A stretch of 41,751 nucleotides of DNA from Phycisphaerae bacterium (GTDB lineage: Bacteria; Planctomycetota; Phycisphaerae; Tepidisphaerales; Tepidisphaeraceae), in NCBI GenBank assembly GCA_025924315.1, contig JAICIO010000045.1, forward strand, positions 1-41,751, written 5' to 3'. A program made the translations under genes and the position numbers. The first letter of the stretch is position 1. The number at the start of each line of letters is the position of its first letter. Positions 1 to 23,837 of the stretch are shown in pieces. The notes beneath the pieces are model-generated. The model saw only the letters and a program-made list of their open reading frames with translations. It did no database searches and had not been told where the DNA came from.

Positions 1-24
1 ACAGCCGAGGGCGGCTGTGCCACA
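1..24. repeat. Family A palindromic repeat, one arm at window edge
   Basis: This matches an arm of the elements at 2476-2540 and 12509-12572 (core GCCGAGGGCGGC). The window edge cuts off the rest. It lies immediately after the stop codon of the GNAT/FG-GAP gene. Confidence 0.8.
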
Positions 25-26
25 CA

Positions 27-1611: not shown

Positions 1612-1668
1612 GTAGCACGGGCTACCCGCCCGCGCCCATTCAATGCTCGGGCTGGTAGCCCGTCCTAC
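1612..1668. repeat. Family B inverted repeat overlapping the pabB stop codon
   Basis: Arms 1612-1632 and 1648-1668 are complementary at 19 of 21 positions (core ACGGGCTACC). The right arm contains the TAG that ends pabB (1665-1667). The element fills the whole gap to the GNAT start, so it may act as a hairpin between the two genes. Confidence 0.8.
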
Positions 1669-2843
1669 GAAAAGTCGCGAATGCCTAACGCATCGAACAT
1701 CGCCTTCGCCTTTACGATCGTCTCCTCATATTCGGATGAGGGCACAGAATCCGCAACAATCCCGCCGCCGACGGGGATGTGAACCTTGCCGGCTTTTGCG
1801 ATCATGGTTCGGATGGCGATGTTGAACTGCATTGTGCCGTCCGAATCGAGGTAGCCGATCGCGCCGCAGTAGGGGCCTCGTCGAACGGGTTCGAACTCTT
1901 CGATGATTTCCATGGCGCGGATCTTCGGCGCGCCCGTAATGCTTCCGCCGGGGAAGGTGGCGCGCATGAGATCAACGAATGTGACGCCCTGGCGCAACTC
2001 TCCTTCGATTGTGGCGACGCCTTGATAGACGGTGGGGTGTGCTTCGATGACGCGCGCTTCGGTCACGCGAACGCTGCCGATCTCGCACACGCGGCCGAGG
2101 TCATTGCGCTCCATGTCGATGATCATGTTCAGCTCGGCGGTGTCTTTTGCGGATTGGCGGAGTTGCTCTTCCATTCCCGGCAGTCGCGGGCGTGTCCCCT
2201 TGATGGGACGGGTGATCACGCGGCGGTCGCGATCGACTTTCAGAAACAGCTCTGGCGAATTACTGATGAGCGCGAAGTCGCCGAAGTCGAGAAACGCGCC
2301 GTACTTCGCGGGCGCGAGACGTTGATAGAGATCGTGCGGTGCACACGTGAGCGCGGCGGTGAAGCGTTGTGAAAGATTCACCTGAAACACATCGCCAGCG
2401 CGGACGTAGTCGATCACGCGAGCGACGGCGCGCTCGTAGGCATCTCGCGAAAACGTCGATTGCAAATCAGCTTGGTGTGGCACAGCCGCCCTCGGCTGTG
2501 TGTGTGCGGAGGGAGCACAGCCGAGGGCGGCTGTGCCACATAGGCCAAACGCGAACAGCGGTAGCGATAAGTCATCACGCGCCTTCGTGGGAAGCTGTTC
2601 GAACCATCGCCCGAGGTCGTAGCTGACATAGCCGATCCATCGCGAATCTTGCGCAATCGACTTCGACATCCACGCGAGCGCTTCGAGGGGATCATTCCAC
2701 GATTGGATGACTTGGCCGTCGGGATCCACGCACTGTGCACGACCGGCCGCATCAGCAAACAGCACTCGCTCGGCGGTTGCGAGCGGTTGCCGCCAGCCGC
2801 GTTCATTCGTCGAGCTGTCGAGTTGAGCGAGCATGCGCCTCAT
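1665..2843 (-). CDS. pabB: Aminodeoxychorismate synthase component I (PabB)
   Basis: PabB aminates chorismate to 4-amino-4-deoxychorismate for p-aminobenzoate and folate synthesis. The 392-residue product has the chorismate-binding core: PIKGT at 213-217 (the lysine typical of PabB rather than TrpE), ELNMIIDMERNDLGR at 237-251, HPTVYQGV at 269-276 and GGSITGAPK at 299-307. No C-terminal aminotransferase or lyase domain follows. The frame stays open upstream to 3560, but that part is a shadow of the GH76 gene. The ATG at 2843 overlaps the GH76 stop (ATGA), so translational coupling is likely; an ATG at 2834 is the alternative. Residues 102-123 are encoded entirely by a 65-bp palindromic repeat lying before the catalytic core, and the stop codon lies in another repeat. 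Confidence 0.92.
   Translation of the reverse strand: MRRMLAQLDSSTNERGWRQPLATAERVLFADAAGRAQCVDPDGQVIQSWNDPLEALAWMSKSIAQDSRWIGYVSYDLGRWFEQLPTKARDDLSLPLFAFGLCGTAALGCAPSAHTQPRAAVPHQADLQSTFSRDAYERAVARVIDYVRAGDVFQVNLSQRFTAALTCAPHDLYQRLAPAKYGAFLDFGDFALISNSPELFLKVDRDRRVITRPIKGTRPRLPGMEEQLRQSAKDTAELNMIIDMERNDLGRVCEIGSVRVTEARVIEAHPTVYQGVATIEGELRQGVTFVDLMRATFPGGSITGAPKIRAMEIIEEFEPVRRGPYCGAIGYLDSDGTMQFNIAIRTMIAKAGKVHIPVGGGIVADSVPSSEYEETIVKAKAMFDALGIRDFS
2476..2540. repeat. Family A palindrome inserted in frame in pabB
   Basis: Two perfectly complementary 25-bp arms (2476-2500, 2516-2540) flank a 15-base spacer. Each arm has its own small dyad (CAGCCG/CGGCTG). Another full copy is intergenic at 12509-12572. 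The minus-strand reading gives a Cys/Ala/Pro-rich peptide in PabB without a stop. Confidence 0.95.
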
Positions 2844-3993: not shown

Positions 3994-6900
3994 TTATTCT
4001 TCGAGTTTGTTGAGCTCCGCTTCAAGCGCTGCGAGCTGATCCTGGGTTTGTTTCACCAGATGCGGCGGGGCTTTGGCGATGTAACCTGCATTCGCCAGTC
4101 GTCCCTTCATCGCGCCGATCTGTTTCACGATCTCTTCGCGACGCTTTGAGCTGCGTTCGGCTTCGGCCTTCTCATCTAGCGCGCCTTCGATGAACAATTC
4201 GCATCCCGCCGCTTGGGATTTCGCGGCGGTTGCTGCGATCGCGCTAAGCCGCGAAGCGGCTTCCTTTACCTCGCAAATCGCGAGATGCTCGATCAGCGCC
4301 TTGTTCGCTTCGACCTGGCGAATCGATTCTTCGGGGCCCTGGATCGAGACGGTCACCGGTTGCTTTGGGCTGACGTTGTGATCGTTCCGCACCTTGCGGA
4401 TCTCGGTGATGATCTCCTGCAATCGTGTGAAGACATGCTCGGCGCCTTCGCTCGTGAGGCCGTCCATGCGCTCGTCGTACTTCGGCCATCGCGCACGGAT
4501 GAGCTGTGCATTGTCGCCGGGTGTAATGCGGTTTGGGATGCCGCGCTGTGGGCGCACCTCGTTCAGCTTCCACCAGAGGATCTCCGTGATGAATGGGATC
4601 ATCGGGTGCATCAGGCGCAGCGACACGTCGAGCGCCGTTGCCAGAATGTTCGCCACGTGCGGGGCGCGTTGCTCATCCCGCATCTGCGGCTTGATCGCTT
4701 CGATGTACCAGTCGCACAGATCGCCCCAGAAGAAGTCGTAGCACGCTTTCGAATACACATCGAAGCGATAATTCTTCATCGCCTCTTCGGTCGTCTGCAC
4801 CGTGCGCGAAAGGCGCGAGAGGATCCAGCGATCGACGATCGACCATTGCGATTCATCGACCGCCGCCACGGGCACCGATTCGAGGTTCATGAAAAGGAAC
4901 CGCGTGGCGTTCCAGAGCTTGTTGCAGAAATTTCGGCCGATGTCGAACTTCGGGCTCGTGTTGCGGCCGGTCTTGGCGTCCTTCTCGACCGGCATGCGCA
5001 CGTCCTGCGTGTTGGTCGCCATCGTGGCGAGCGTGAAGCGCATCGCGTCGGCGCCGTGCGTGTGAATGATGTCCAGCGGATCGACGCCGTTGCCGAGCGA
5101 CTTGCTCATCTTCCGCCCTTCGCCGTCCTGCACCACCGGGTTGATGTAGACCTCGGTGAACGGCAGGCGATTGCGGAAGTACAGGTTGAACATCACCATC
5201 CGCGAGACCCAGAGCGTGATGATCTCGCGGGCGGTCACGAGCACGTTCGTCGGGTTCCACTTGTTCAGTGCCGGCGTGTCGTCCGGCCAGCCGAGGGTGG
5301 AGAGCGGCCAGAGGCCGGAACTGAACCATGTGTCGAGCACATCCGGATCTTGCACGGCGCCATACTTTTCGAGCGCGTCGATAATCTCGCGATCGTTCGG
5401 ATCGCGCACGCACACGAAGGTGAAGGGCAGCGAGCGATCGGCGATGTCCTCCGGACGCGCTTCGGCACGCTCAGCGCGGTGCGTCATCGCGATGCGGTTT
5501 TCCTGTCCCCATTTGGTCAGCTGCTCGATCACCGCTTCGAACTGCTGATCGTTCAGCTTGTCCGACAGGCGTCCCTCCGGGAGCCGCCAGACGGGGATGC
5601 GATGACCCCACCAAAGCTGGCGGCTGATGCACCAGTCGCGGATGTTTTCGTGCCAGGATTGGAAGGTCTTGGCGTAGCGGGCGGGGAAGAAGCGGAGCTG
5701 TTCCTCTGCTCCGCTCTCCCTGGAAGGGAGAGGGTTAGGGTGAGGGTCGAGCGTGGGAGTAGCCGACCCGTTGTTTTGCGAAGTTGCACTGCTCGACTCT
5801 GACGATGACGATCCACCCTCACCCTTACCCTCTCCCTCATAGGGAGAGGGGATCAGAGTGCGCTGATCCGCGGCCATCGCGCGTAACGCCGCGGCCGCCA
5901 AACGATCATCCGTCACTTTGCAGTACCACTGGTCGCTGAGGTACGGCTCGATCGGGACGTGGCTGCGGTAGCTGTGGCCCACGCTGTGGCGATAGGGCTT
6001 CACGTCTTCGAGCAGTTTTTTCTGGCGGAACCATTCGAGGATGGCTTTGCGCGCTTCGTAGCGGTCGAGGCCGAGGACGAACTCCGCGTCGCCGATGTCG
6101 GTCCAGCCGTGCTTGTCAGAGATGGAGCCGTCGGGCGCCATCACGTTGATCAGTGGCAGGCCGTGCTTGCGGCCGAGCTCGTAGTCGTTCGGATCGTGGG
6201 CGGGGGTGACTTTGAGGAAGCCGCTCGCGTAGCGCGCCTTGGCGTCGTCGCGGTTTGGATCGGCGAGGACCACGTACTCGTCTTCGATGATCGGAATGAT
6301 GCGGTTGACGATGGGAAGACGCACCTTCTTTCCACGAAGCGCCGGGGCGCGCGGGTCTTTTGGGTTGATCGCGACGGCGGTGTCGCCGAGCATCGTTTCG
6401 GGGCGGGTGGTTGCCACCGTCACGTGGGTGGGCCCGCCCGCTGAAGCGGGCTCCGCCAAAGGATATTGCAGGTAGTAAAAGTGGCCGTCGATTTCTTCCA
6501 TCTCCACTTCGTCGTCGGCGAGCGCGGTTTGTGTGGCGGGATCCCAGTTCACCAATCTTTTGCCGCGGTAGATCAGGCCGTCTTTGAAGAGTTGGAAGAA
6601 GGCTTCGCGCACGGCGCGGGCGCGCGGTTCGTCCATGGTGAAGGCCTGACGGTCCCAATCGCAGCTGCAGCCCATGGCTTTGAGCTGGCCCGTGATCGTC
6701 TTTTCGTACTCGTCCTTCCATGCCTGGATAAGCTTCACGAATTCGTCGCGCTGAAAGTCCGTGCGGCGCTTGCCTTGTTCTTTCAGCACGCGTTTCTCGA
6801 CCACGGTTTGCGTGGCGATGCCGGCATGATCCGTGCCGGGCAGCCAGCAGGTGTTGTCGCCGAGCATGCGGTGGTAACGGGTGAGGATGTCCTGCAGCGT

Positions 6901-7080
6901 GTTGTTCAGGGCATGACCTAAGTGCAACGCCGCGGTCACGTTCGGTGGCGGAATGACGATGCTGTAGGGCTGTCCGGGATCGGTCGGTTCGGCATGAAAG
7001 GCATGTGTGTCGTTCCAGGCTTTCAGCGCCTGGGCTTCGATGGTCGTCGGTTCGTAGGCTTTGGATAATTGTTCGCTCAT
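3994..7080 (-). CDS. valS: Valyl-tRNA synthetase
   Basis: This class I aminoacyl-tRNA synthetase charges tRNA-Val. The product is about 1028 residues. The HIGH-type motif is HLGH at 53-56 (after PPPNVTAAL), the KMSKS loop is at 657-661 (GRKMSKSLGN), and the signatures DWDRQ, DTWFSSGLWP and ENIRDWCISRQLWWGHRIPVW are present. A C-terminal coiled-coil arm follows. The ATG at 7080 (MSEQLSKAYEP) fits the family start better than the upstream in-frame start at 7131. Residues about 410-457 are an insert rich in Ser, Gly, Glu and Pro, encoded by a palindromic repeat; it lies between RAMAADQ and LRFFPARY, just before the conserved ENIRDW block. A short hairpin (7092-7098/7108-7114) lies just upstream of the start. 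Confidence 0.97.
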   Translation of the reverse strand: MSEQLSKAYEPTTIEAQALKAWNDTHAFHAEPTDPGQPYSIVIPPPNVTAALHLGHALNNTLQDILTRYHRMLGDNTCWLPGTDHAGIATQTVVEKRVLKEQGKRRTDFQRDEFVKLIQAWKDEYEKTITGQLKAMGCSCDWDRQAFTMDEPRARAVREAFFQLFKDGLIYRGKRLVNWDPATQTALADDEVEMEEIDGHFYYLQYPLAEPASAGGPTHVTVATTRPETMLGDTAVAINPKDPRAPALRGKKVRLPIVNRIIPIIEDEYVVLADPNRDDAKARYASGFLKVTPAHDPNDYELGRKHGLPLINVMAPDGSISDKHGWTDIGDAEFVLGLDRYEARKAILEWFRQKKLLEDVKPYRHSVGHSYRSHVPIEPYLSDQWYCKVTDDRLAAAALRAMAADQRTLIPSPYEGEGKGEGGSSSSESSSATSQNNGSATPTLDPHPNPLPSRESGAEEQLRFFPARYAKTFQSWHENIRDWCISRQLWWGHRIPVWRLPEGRLSDKLNDQQFEAVIEQLTKWGQENRIAMTHRAERAEARPEDIADRSLPFTFVCVRDPNDREIIDALEKYGAVQDPDVLDTWFSSGLWPLSTLGWPDDTPALNKWNPTNVLVTAREIITLWVSRMVMFNLYFRNRLPFTEVYINPVVQDGEGRKMSKSLGNGVDPLDIIHTHGADAMRFTLATMATNTQDVRMPVEKDAKTGRNTSPKFDIGRNFCNKLWNATRFLFMNLESVPVAAVDESQWSIVDRWILSRLSRTVQTTEEAMKNYRFDVYSKACYDFFWGDLCDWYIEAIKPQMRDEQRAPHVANILATALDVSLRLMHPMIPFITEILWWKLNEVRPQRGIPNRITPGDNAQLIRARWPKYDERMDGLTSEGAEHVFTRLQEIITEIRKVRNDHNVSPKQPVTVSIQGPEESIRQVEANKALIEHLAICEVKEAASRLSAIAATAAKSQAAGCELFIEGALDEKAEAERSSKRREEIVKQIGAMKGRLANAGYIAKAPPHLVKQTQDQLAALEAELNKLEE
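5711..5852. repeat. Family D inverted repeat inserted in frame in valS
   Basis: Arms 5711-5749 and 5813-5852 share the core CTCTCCCT..AGGGAGAGGG plus a GGGTGAGGGT tail, in opposite orientation. The same unit occurs twice, inverted, at 9244-9603. The central 60 bases are not repeated elsewhere in the window. The element reads through in the valS frame without a stop. Confidence 0.93.
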
Positions 7081-7193
7081 GGCTTTTATCACGTGGTCAC
7101 CAAATGCGACCACGCCGCTCATTTGGGTCAAAAATCGGTCGAAACGGGGATACTACGGGAGTGGGGTCGGGGGAACAATCTTCCCGCGCGACC

Positions 7194-11251: not shown

Positions 11252-11292
11252 GGCGGGAAGTATAGGATTTGTCGCGCGACCTACAATTATCC

Positions 11293-12495
11293 ATGATTTT
11301 CGTCGTCATCATCATCGCCTTGCTCGCCGCGGATGTACTGTGGTGGCGGTGGGCGTATCACGTTCTTGGTCGCGCGCCGCACGCGAGATACTGGCGCTTC
11401 GCGCTCGGGCTCTTCATGGGCGTGATGCTCGGCTACTTAGTCATCTTCATGATCGCGCCCGGATATGGGCGGCGCTCGTACACGATCATTCCGCAGTCGG
11501 TGCTGGCAATGATTTACCTGTGGCATCTGCTTGTGATGCCATTCACGGCGCTTGTGGCTCTGGTCGTCGCGATTTTGCGTGGGATAGCCCGCATTTCCGC
11601 GTGTAGCCGGCGAGCTTGCTCGCCGAGGTCGGACCGGAAAGAGACGGCGAGCAAGCTCGCCGGCTACACGCAGACCGAAGGTCCCACGCGACGCGAGATC
11701 CTCGCCGCGTCGATCGTCGGGGTGCCTCCGCTTATTGCGGGTGGCCTCACCGCCCGCGCAATGGCGCATCTGACCGATCTGCGTGTTCGCCGATTCGATC
11801 TGGCGCTTCCGAACCTTCCGCCGAATCTCGATGGCGTGACGATCGCTCAAGTGAGCGACACGCACATCGGCCGCTTCACGCGCAAGGGCTCGCTCGATCG
11901 CGTCGTCGAAATGACCAACCAGCTGCGTGCCGATCTCGTGCTTTTCACCGGCGATCTGATCGACATCTCGCTCGCGGATTTGCCTCGCGGCATCGAGATG
12001 CTGCATAAACTCGATCCGCGAGCAGGGCTTTATCTCATCGAAGGCAATCACGATTTGATCGACGACAAAACGGTTTTTGAGCGCACGATGAAGTCGACGA
12101 ACATCCCCACGCTGCTGAACGAAAGCACGCTGGTGAAAGTTCGAGGCGAAACCATTCAGCTTCTCGGCACGCGTTGGACGCATGGGAACGACAACATCCG
12201 CCGCATGACCGAATCCGTCCCCGCGGATCCGAATGCGTTCAGCATTCTGATGGCCCATCACCCGCATGCGTTCGATTACACGACCGCCGATCTCACGCTC
12301 TCCGGCCACACGCACGGCGGACAGATCATGCTCAACGAACGCCTCGGCTTCGGCCCCGCGATGTTCCGCTATTGGTCCGGGTTGTATGAGAAAGGAAATC
12401 GAAAGTTGATCGTGTCGAATGGGACAGGGAACTGGTTCCCGTTACGCATCAACGCGCCAGCCGAAATTGTGCATCTGACTCTCCACCGCGCGTAA
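11293..12495 (+). CDS. Membrane-anchored metallophosphoesterase (YkuE/YaeI-like)
   Basis: The 400-residue product begins with three hydrophobic segments (about 1-15, 36-54, 68-96), then a second TRREILAAS..GVPPLIAGGL segment that looks like a Tat-style signal anchor. The calcineurin-like phosphodiesterase domain follows with all five metal motifs: SDTHIG at 188-193, GDLID, EGNHDL, MAHHPHAFD and SGHTHGGQ. Related proteins are membrane phosphodiesterases, some acting on UDP-diacylglucosamine or phospholipid headgroups; the substrate here is unknown. The ATG at 11293 is preferred over a TTG at 11269, which would precede the first membrane segment by eight residues. Residues about 103-127 (rich in Arg, Cys, Ser and Lys) come from an in-frame palindromic repeat located in the loop between the membrane segments. 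Confidence 0.87.
   Translation: MIFVVIIIALLAADVLWWRWAYHVLGRAPHARYWRFALGLFMGVMLGYLVIFMIAPGYGRRSYTIIPQSVLAMIYLWHLLVMPFTALVALVVAILRGIARISACSRRACSPRSDRKETASKLAGYTQTEGPTRREILAASIVGVPPLIAGGLTARAMAHLTDLRVRRFDLALPNLPPNLDGVTIAQVSDTHIGRFTRKGSLDRVVEMTNQLRADLVLFTGDLIDISLADLPRGIEMLHKLDPRAGLYLIEGNHDLIDDKTVFERTMKSTNIPTLLNESTLVKVRGETIQLLGTRWTHGNDNIRRMTESVPADPNAFSILMAHHPHAFDYTTADLTLSGHTHGGQIMLNERLGFGPAMFRYWSGLYEKGNRKLIVSNGTGNWFPLRINAPAEIVHLTLHRA
11599..11671. repeat. Family G palindrome inserted in frame in the metallophosphoesterase gene
   Basis: Perfect 27-bp arms (11599-11625, 11645-11671; core CCGGCGAGCTTGCTCGCC) flank a 19-base spacer. An intergenic relative is at 22671-22742. Confidence 0.95.
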
Positions 12496-12508: not shown

Positions 12509-12572
12509 TGTGGCACAGCCGCCCTCGGCTGTGCTTGCGGTGCGGAGCACAGCCGAGGGCGGCTGTGCCACA
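12509..12572. repeat. Family A palindrome between convergent genes
   Basis: Perfect 26-bp arms (12509-12534, 12547-12572) flank a 12-base spacer. It lies between the stops of the metallophosphoesterase gene and the minus-strand gene at 12584, where it could end transcription from both sides. Confidence 0.95.
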
Positions 12573-14169: not shown

Positions 14170-14301
14170 GCCGTCGCCGCGAGAGACGGCCGGGTCCGAT
14201 GCAAGGGTCGGCTGTGAACCGGGTCAGGTCCGAGAGGAAGCAGCCCTAAACAGATCCTGCCTTGTGCCGTCGTGTCCCCGGTCGTCTTTCGTGGCGACGG
14301 C
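14170..14301 (+). ncRNA. ffs: Signal recognition particle RNA (4.5S-like, bacterial small type)
   Basis: The domain IV core GGTCAGGTCC GAGA GGAAGCAGCC at 14222-14245 is the Ffh-binding hairpin, here with a GAGA (GNRA) tetraloop. The flanks 14170-14191 and 14280-14301 pair along 22 positions with only G-U wobbles as exceptions, closing the molecule. TTTT follows at once (14303-14306), so the closing helix doubles as terminator. Predicted length is about 132 nucleotides, somewhat long for the small bacterial type. With Ffh the RNA targets nascent membrane and secreted proteins to SecYEG. Confidence 0.93.
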
Positions 14302-22152: not shown

Positions 22153-22235
22153 CGTGTAGGGTCCGCTTCAGCGGACCGGTTATTCGCCTTTCGCGCGCAA
22201 AGAAATAAGCGGTCCGCTGAAGCGGACCCTACACG
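22153..22235. repeat. Family N inverted repeat
   Basis: The 32-bp arms (22153-22184, 22204-22235; GGGTCCGCTTCAGCGGACC core, itself a dyad) match at 31 of 32 positions. It lies between convergent genes; relative at 23766-23837. Confidence 0.95.
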
Positions 22236-23765: not shown

Positions 23766-23837
23766 GTACGGTCCGCTTCAGACTGGTTATTTATTGGGAC
23801 CCAAGCAAAATAACCGGTCCGCTGAAGCGGACCTTAC
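23766..23837. repeat. Family N inverted repeat, second copy
   Basis: The right arm (23808-23837) matches family N; the left arm (23766-23791) lacks four bases of the central GGACC dyad. It lies just upstream of the holin-like gene. Confidence 0.87.

Follow-up and report, generated by a model that had tools for sequence, protein, structure and literature searches.

The locus studied here raises the question of how a dispersed palindromic repeat can lie within the reading frame of a biosynthetic gene while the gene stays open. We analysed it within a stretch of 41,751 nucleotides from a Phycisphaerae bacterium (in the following called the window), which is contig C45 of an assembly of 6.57 Mb in 262 contigs. 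A preliminary description of this DNA had reported a palindrome placed in frame in pabB. Our analysis makes it very probable that the element is a REP doublet copied by a RAYT transposase, which entered the variable linker of pabB with the frame kept and persists as tolerated filler in an enzyme that is expected to work.

Anatomy and dispersal of the element

Comparison of the two arms reproduced the described 65-bp palindrome with perfect 25-bp arms exactly, the arms being 100% complementary over 25 nt (Table 1). Each arm forms a hairpin of its own that is preceded by GTGG, and the two are arranged head-to-head. For the whole element a fold of -57.9 kcal/mol was obtained (z = -9.7 versus shuffled sequences). 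Rfam found no known RNA or riboswitch at the element; its sole match in the window is an SRP RNA located elsewhere. The pabB element is a GTGG-tagged REP doublet of the GTAG superfamily, of the REPIN/BIME type.

Table 1. Positions of the repeat, its host gene and further features; coordinates refer to the window unless a contig is named.
Feature	Position	Strand	Details
REP doublet (REPIN/BIME) in pabB	2476..2540	.	25-bp inverted arms, 15-nt spacer
First REP arm	2476..2500	+	tag GTGG + hairpin CACAGCCG-CCCT-CGGCTGTG
Second REP arm	2516..2540	-	opposite orientation
pabB (aminodeoxychorismate synthase component I)	1665..2834	-	Pfam Anth_synt_I_N residues 19-101, Chorismate_bind 130-375
Second doublet copy	12509..12572	.	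intergenic; spacer cttgcggtgcggag identical to copy at C18:16460
Third doublet, one half only	1..25	-	contig end
Candidate RAYT (locus L095)	C20:4997-5485		162-aa protein
Repeat pair in valyl-tRNA synthetase	5700-5856	-	ORF 3994-7131; IPSPYEGEGKGEGG...TLDPHPNPLPSRESG
REP doublet in metallophosphoesterase	11596-11674	+	ORF 11269-12495; different GTAG type, GTAGCCGGCGAGCTTGCTCGCCG
Another REP family	22153-22235 and 23808-23837		GTAGGGTCCGCTTCAGCGGACC; same type as CarB insert of G003
Bacterial small SRP RNA	14188-14286	+	Rfam RF00169, 63.6 bits

Genome-wide the arm was matched 168 times at up to 3 mismatches while a control with the reversed pattern gave 0 matches, such that the number of repeats is well above chance and the element is indeed a dispersed repeat, as had been proposed. 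The flanks were read for part of these 168 arms, at listed places. Among 41 full doublets read with their flanks the spacers varied between 10 and 27 nt, the ends were mostly RT...AY and no target-site duplication was visible. Identical or near-identical spacers were found at unrelated sites, for example at window position 12509 and at C18:16460, which indicates that the doublet moves as a unit. The tag is GTGG in nearly all copies. The copy at 12509, previously reported as intergenic, proved to be real, with a 62-bp core just past the stop codon of the metallophosphoesterase gene (12493-12495), and the half doublet at the contig end results from the assembly having broken within the repeat. 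Copies are mostly extragenic, since about 67 of about 76 sites lie outside any frame with coding sequence at both flanks. Across the family and the phylum the distribution is patchy: the element was matched in 4 of 26 genomes of the family and the arm in 7 of 294 sampled genomes of the phylum. Hybrid doublets in which an arm of the pabB-type REP is joined to one of a second type (CACAGTCCCGG...CCGGGACTGTG) were seen at L064 (1353-1398), L209, L217, L225 and L228.

The genome contains 10 matches to Y1_Tnp. One of them, the candidate RAYT on C20, has by eye an HxH motif in MPDHSHLLF and a Tyr in YICENP, and it passes the NCBIfam model NF047646 (REP_Tyr_transpos) narrowly with 80.6 bits at a cut-off of 80. 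Its homologues in the family have at most 41% identity. A GTAG-tagged variant of the REP lies just 5' of its start and REP arms are found within 150 bp past its stop; beside the other 9 loci no REP was found within the stretches read. For TnpAREP, cleavage is known to depend on the tetranucleotide (PMC8266576). A Y1/HUH-type RAYT of the same genome would copy the doublet, and by its linkage to the repeats the protein on C20 is most likely the one that mobilises them.

The PabB linker with and without the repeat

The pabB frame starts with an ATG at 2834 (or at 2843 with the upstream ATG), ends with a stop at 1665-1667 and has no stop across the element. Counted from the 2834 start the element encodes residues 99-120 (CGTAALGCAPSAHTQPRAAVPH), and the residues 102-123 given earlier follow when counting from 2843. 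The catalytic motifs are intact as well, with the Chorismate_bind domain, the PIKGT lysine and the catalytic motifs all being present. The best-scoring NCBIfam models for the host protein are those of PabB, yet the scores stay below their cut-offs. The genome holds one PabB; the other full match, with 44% identity on C217, is presumably TrpE.

The linker that holds the repeat peptide runs from the PLFAF strand to the first helix of the chorismate-binding domain. In repeat-free orthologues of the family this linker measures 24-40 aa, in most cases 26-28, while the linker of the window PabB has 31 aa, of which 22 are derived from the repeat and 9 remain without it. Orthologues therefore do not show the clean gap, of about 22 residues, that had been predicted for an insertion. 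A homologous segment of equal length in repeat-free orthologues had been named as evidence against insertion; such a segment exists with respect to its length, but it is not homologous. Given orthologue linkers of 24-40 aa versus 9 aa here, the repeat most likely replaced most of a variable native linker. Pure insertion into a linker of 9 aa is possible, but no relative has such a linker, and the about 18 missing native residues are not explained by a simple insertion. The named PabB relatives are Phycisphaerales/Phycisphaerae MAGs.

For the replacement we propose the following course. One doublet copy would have landed in the variable interdomain linker, about 18 native residues would have been lost, probably in this order, and the net change in length would have been a multiple of three. 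Since 65 bp cannot be divided evenly into codons, an open frame requires a slightly different inserted length or the loss of target bases. Inspection of the REP arm revealed no stop codon in any frame (translations CGTAALGC, VAQPPSAV and WHSRPRLC), which together with a net change by a multiple of three would have kept pabB open. With 31 aa against 24-40 in relatives, the linker would have stayed flexible and of normal length overall, and due to this length a working PabB enzyme is predicted. The repeat is probably translated.

In principle the pabB copy could have been created by a mis-join of short reads at the repeat, all the more as the contigs of this MAG, C45 included, often end in or near REPs. 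However, both flanks are the correct halves of one pabB, in frame and with a linker of normal length, and the same holds for CarB, PurL and RarA. In addition a repeat of 65 bp is shorter than the usual read length. We consider an assembly artefact to be very improbable.

Structure modelling, which had been suggested to see whether the peptide forms a surface loop, placed it in the sole internal loop of low confidence. The AlphaFold2 model has a pLDDT of 84 overall (Z 42 and rmsd 2.8 over 363 residues versus B. subtilis PabB) and of about 52 across residues 101-120. Its only internal segment below 50, residues 105-112, lies inside the repeat peptide.

In-frame repeats in other genes and at the same loops

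When codon usage was tested on both flanks of the about 76 sites, 9 in-frame REP inserts coding on both sides emerged, in 8 genes. These encode PabB, PurL, CarB, a U32 peptidase (with two inserts) and RarA and, according to Pfam, a HEAT-repeat protein, a GNAT acetyltransferase and a glucose/sorbosone-dehydrogenase-like protein. No frame-breaking REP insert was confirmed among the about 76 sites. Two candidates for this were rejected: at L051 the flanks share a strand and differ in frame, yet there is no evident gene, and L215 falls between two genes. Left out of the count were copies before MnmG (L057), a sulfatase (L047) and others, which seem to be in frame but precede plausible start codons.

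Compared to solved structures the gaps of CarB and RarA are near-clean. With respect to 1bxr, residues 666 and 690 of CarB align to E. coli residues 770 and 769, respectively, leaving a gap of 23 residues exactly at the repeat; relative to its own family CarB also lacks a few native residues of the turn. RarA has about 26 extra residues with respect to 3pvs. The 5' arm is read as VAQPPSAV in 7 of 9 inserts, as CGTAALGC in 2 and as WHSRPRLC in none (p ~0.025 under equal phases), and the 3' arm has a single phase in 7 of 7 doublets (p ~0.0014 under equal phases), both values being post hoc and obtained from small numbers. Selection would have purged copies that break frames or structured regions, such that the intragenic survivors in this genome are in frame and largely found in loops or linkers.

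With the pabB element included, the window contains three unrelated in-frame palindromes in three genes. In valyl-tRNA synthetase the stretch with the unrelated repeat pair comprises 70 residues, versus 13 in the solved structure 1gax, and the doublet in the metallophosphoesterase gene is in frame as well.

An in-frame peptide of about 22 aa in core enzymes, with nine such cases in one genome, resembles the Rickettsia palindromic elements (RPE), and one may ask whether the repeat belongs to such a separate selfish class that is specialised for spread within coding sequences. The copies here are, however, mostly intergenic, the tag-plus-hairpin anatomy, the doublets and the RAYT linkage are REP traits, and no RPE model was among the NCBIfam/Pfam matches listed for the host proteins. 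There is thus little to recommend this assignment, to which we give only a very small chance.

Unrelated repeats were found in the same loops elsewhere, among others in further genera of the family. The PabB linker of a genome from another genus (G003; L035) carries two other REP-type doublets in frame, one of them GTAG...CTAC, that of a Fimbriiglobus MAG a perfect GTAG palindrome with 24-bp arms, and that of a further planctomycete MAG a 29-bp palindrome. TrpE/PabB-type proteins of Dehalococcoidia (L114, L124, L126, L127, L133) have SVIASEAKQSRDRDCFVATAPRNDRQ-like peptides at this place, which in several cases we take to be, possibly, the translation of a dispersed repeat. In G003, G010 and G021 the CarB turn contains GTAG REP doublets of different kinds (L240/L241/L249), whereas most of the relatives that lack a palindrome have 11-18 residues over the same stretch. 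As to the RarA linker (L263/L264), G001 and G020 have palindromes there, and G005 has a weaker one.

One reading of the recurrence in PabB, seen also in G003 and the Fimbriiglobus MAG, is that the element was domesticated, i.e. that the REP peptide or the mRNA hairpin gained a function for PabB, such as regulation or partner docking, and persists for this reason. A hairpin of -58 kcal/mol inside the mRNA would be in line with this. However, the repeats in the PabB linker are unrelated in sequence, most relatives have no repeat there at all, similar inserts occur in unrelated proteins, and the loop is of low confidence and without secondary structure in the model. Domestication is thus improbable. 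The earlier proposal that the host tolerates or uses the peptide holds for its first part, while nothing was found that supports use; the peptide would be tolerated filler rather than a functional module.

The recurrence is explained by simple survivorship at permissive loops, and a target preference for these loops is possible. We tentatively put forward a wider view, with the balance of probability somewhat against it: loops of core enzymes (the PabB interdomain linker, the CarB ATP-grasp beta-turn and the RarA linker) may be filled repeatedly by the active REP family of each lineage, with native residues being replaced and with the reading phase under selection (VAQPPSAV/AQPRAAVPH over frames bearing Cys or Trp). 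If this were true, REP systems would steadily supply bacterial proteins with new linker peptides.

Relation to known repeat systems

Though called extragenic, REPs here form part of the coding sequence of key biosynthetic enzymes. The arrival of different families at the same loop in different genera provides a natural record of sites that tolerate random peptides, and the loop inserts are a testable source of linker evolution. For annotation caution is advisable: peptides in databases such as VAQPPSAV or AQPRAAVPH may be repeat-derived and not conserved domains.

The likeness to RPE that had been proposed holds as a functional analogy, in that both are in-frame palindromic insertions in functional proteins, but not as membership. 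Here we have a GTGG-tagged REP doublet whose copies are mostly intergenic and to which a RAYT is linked, and RPE-4/-6 were counted by Di Nocera et al. as CGTC REPs, i.e. as another superfamily (PMC3733652). With the REPINs (Bertels and Rainey 2011, PMC3116915) the element shares the inverted REP doublet, the single hairpin, the dispersal as a unit and the tie to a RAYT; REPINs were, however, defined from extragenic copies, and the present element has a short spacer (10-27 nt).

Closest are the intragenic GTAG-superfamily REPs and REP dimers, already described in 2013 by Di Nocera et al. (PMC3733652). There, as here, whole dimers lie within ORFs and encode 20-30 aa, some ORFs are hit twice, and the inserts are read as neutral and located in linkers or loops. 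In O. terrae GTAG-20 the tag GTAG is mutated to GTGG in most copies, similar to our genome, where the copy preceding the RAYT has GTAG. Two Xanthomonas species were also reported to carry different REPs at roughly one and the same site of recB (PMC3733652). In contrast to that work, the host here is a Phycisphaerales MAG, the genes are mainly biosynthetic (pabB, carB, purL) with rarA in addition, and in three genes different repeat families occupy the same loop in several genera. The phenomenon as such is known; new are the host and the sharper pattern of recurrence at the same loops.
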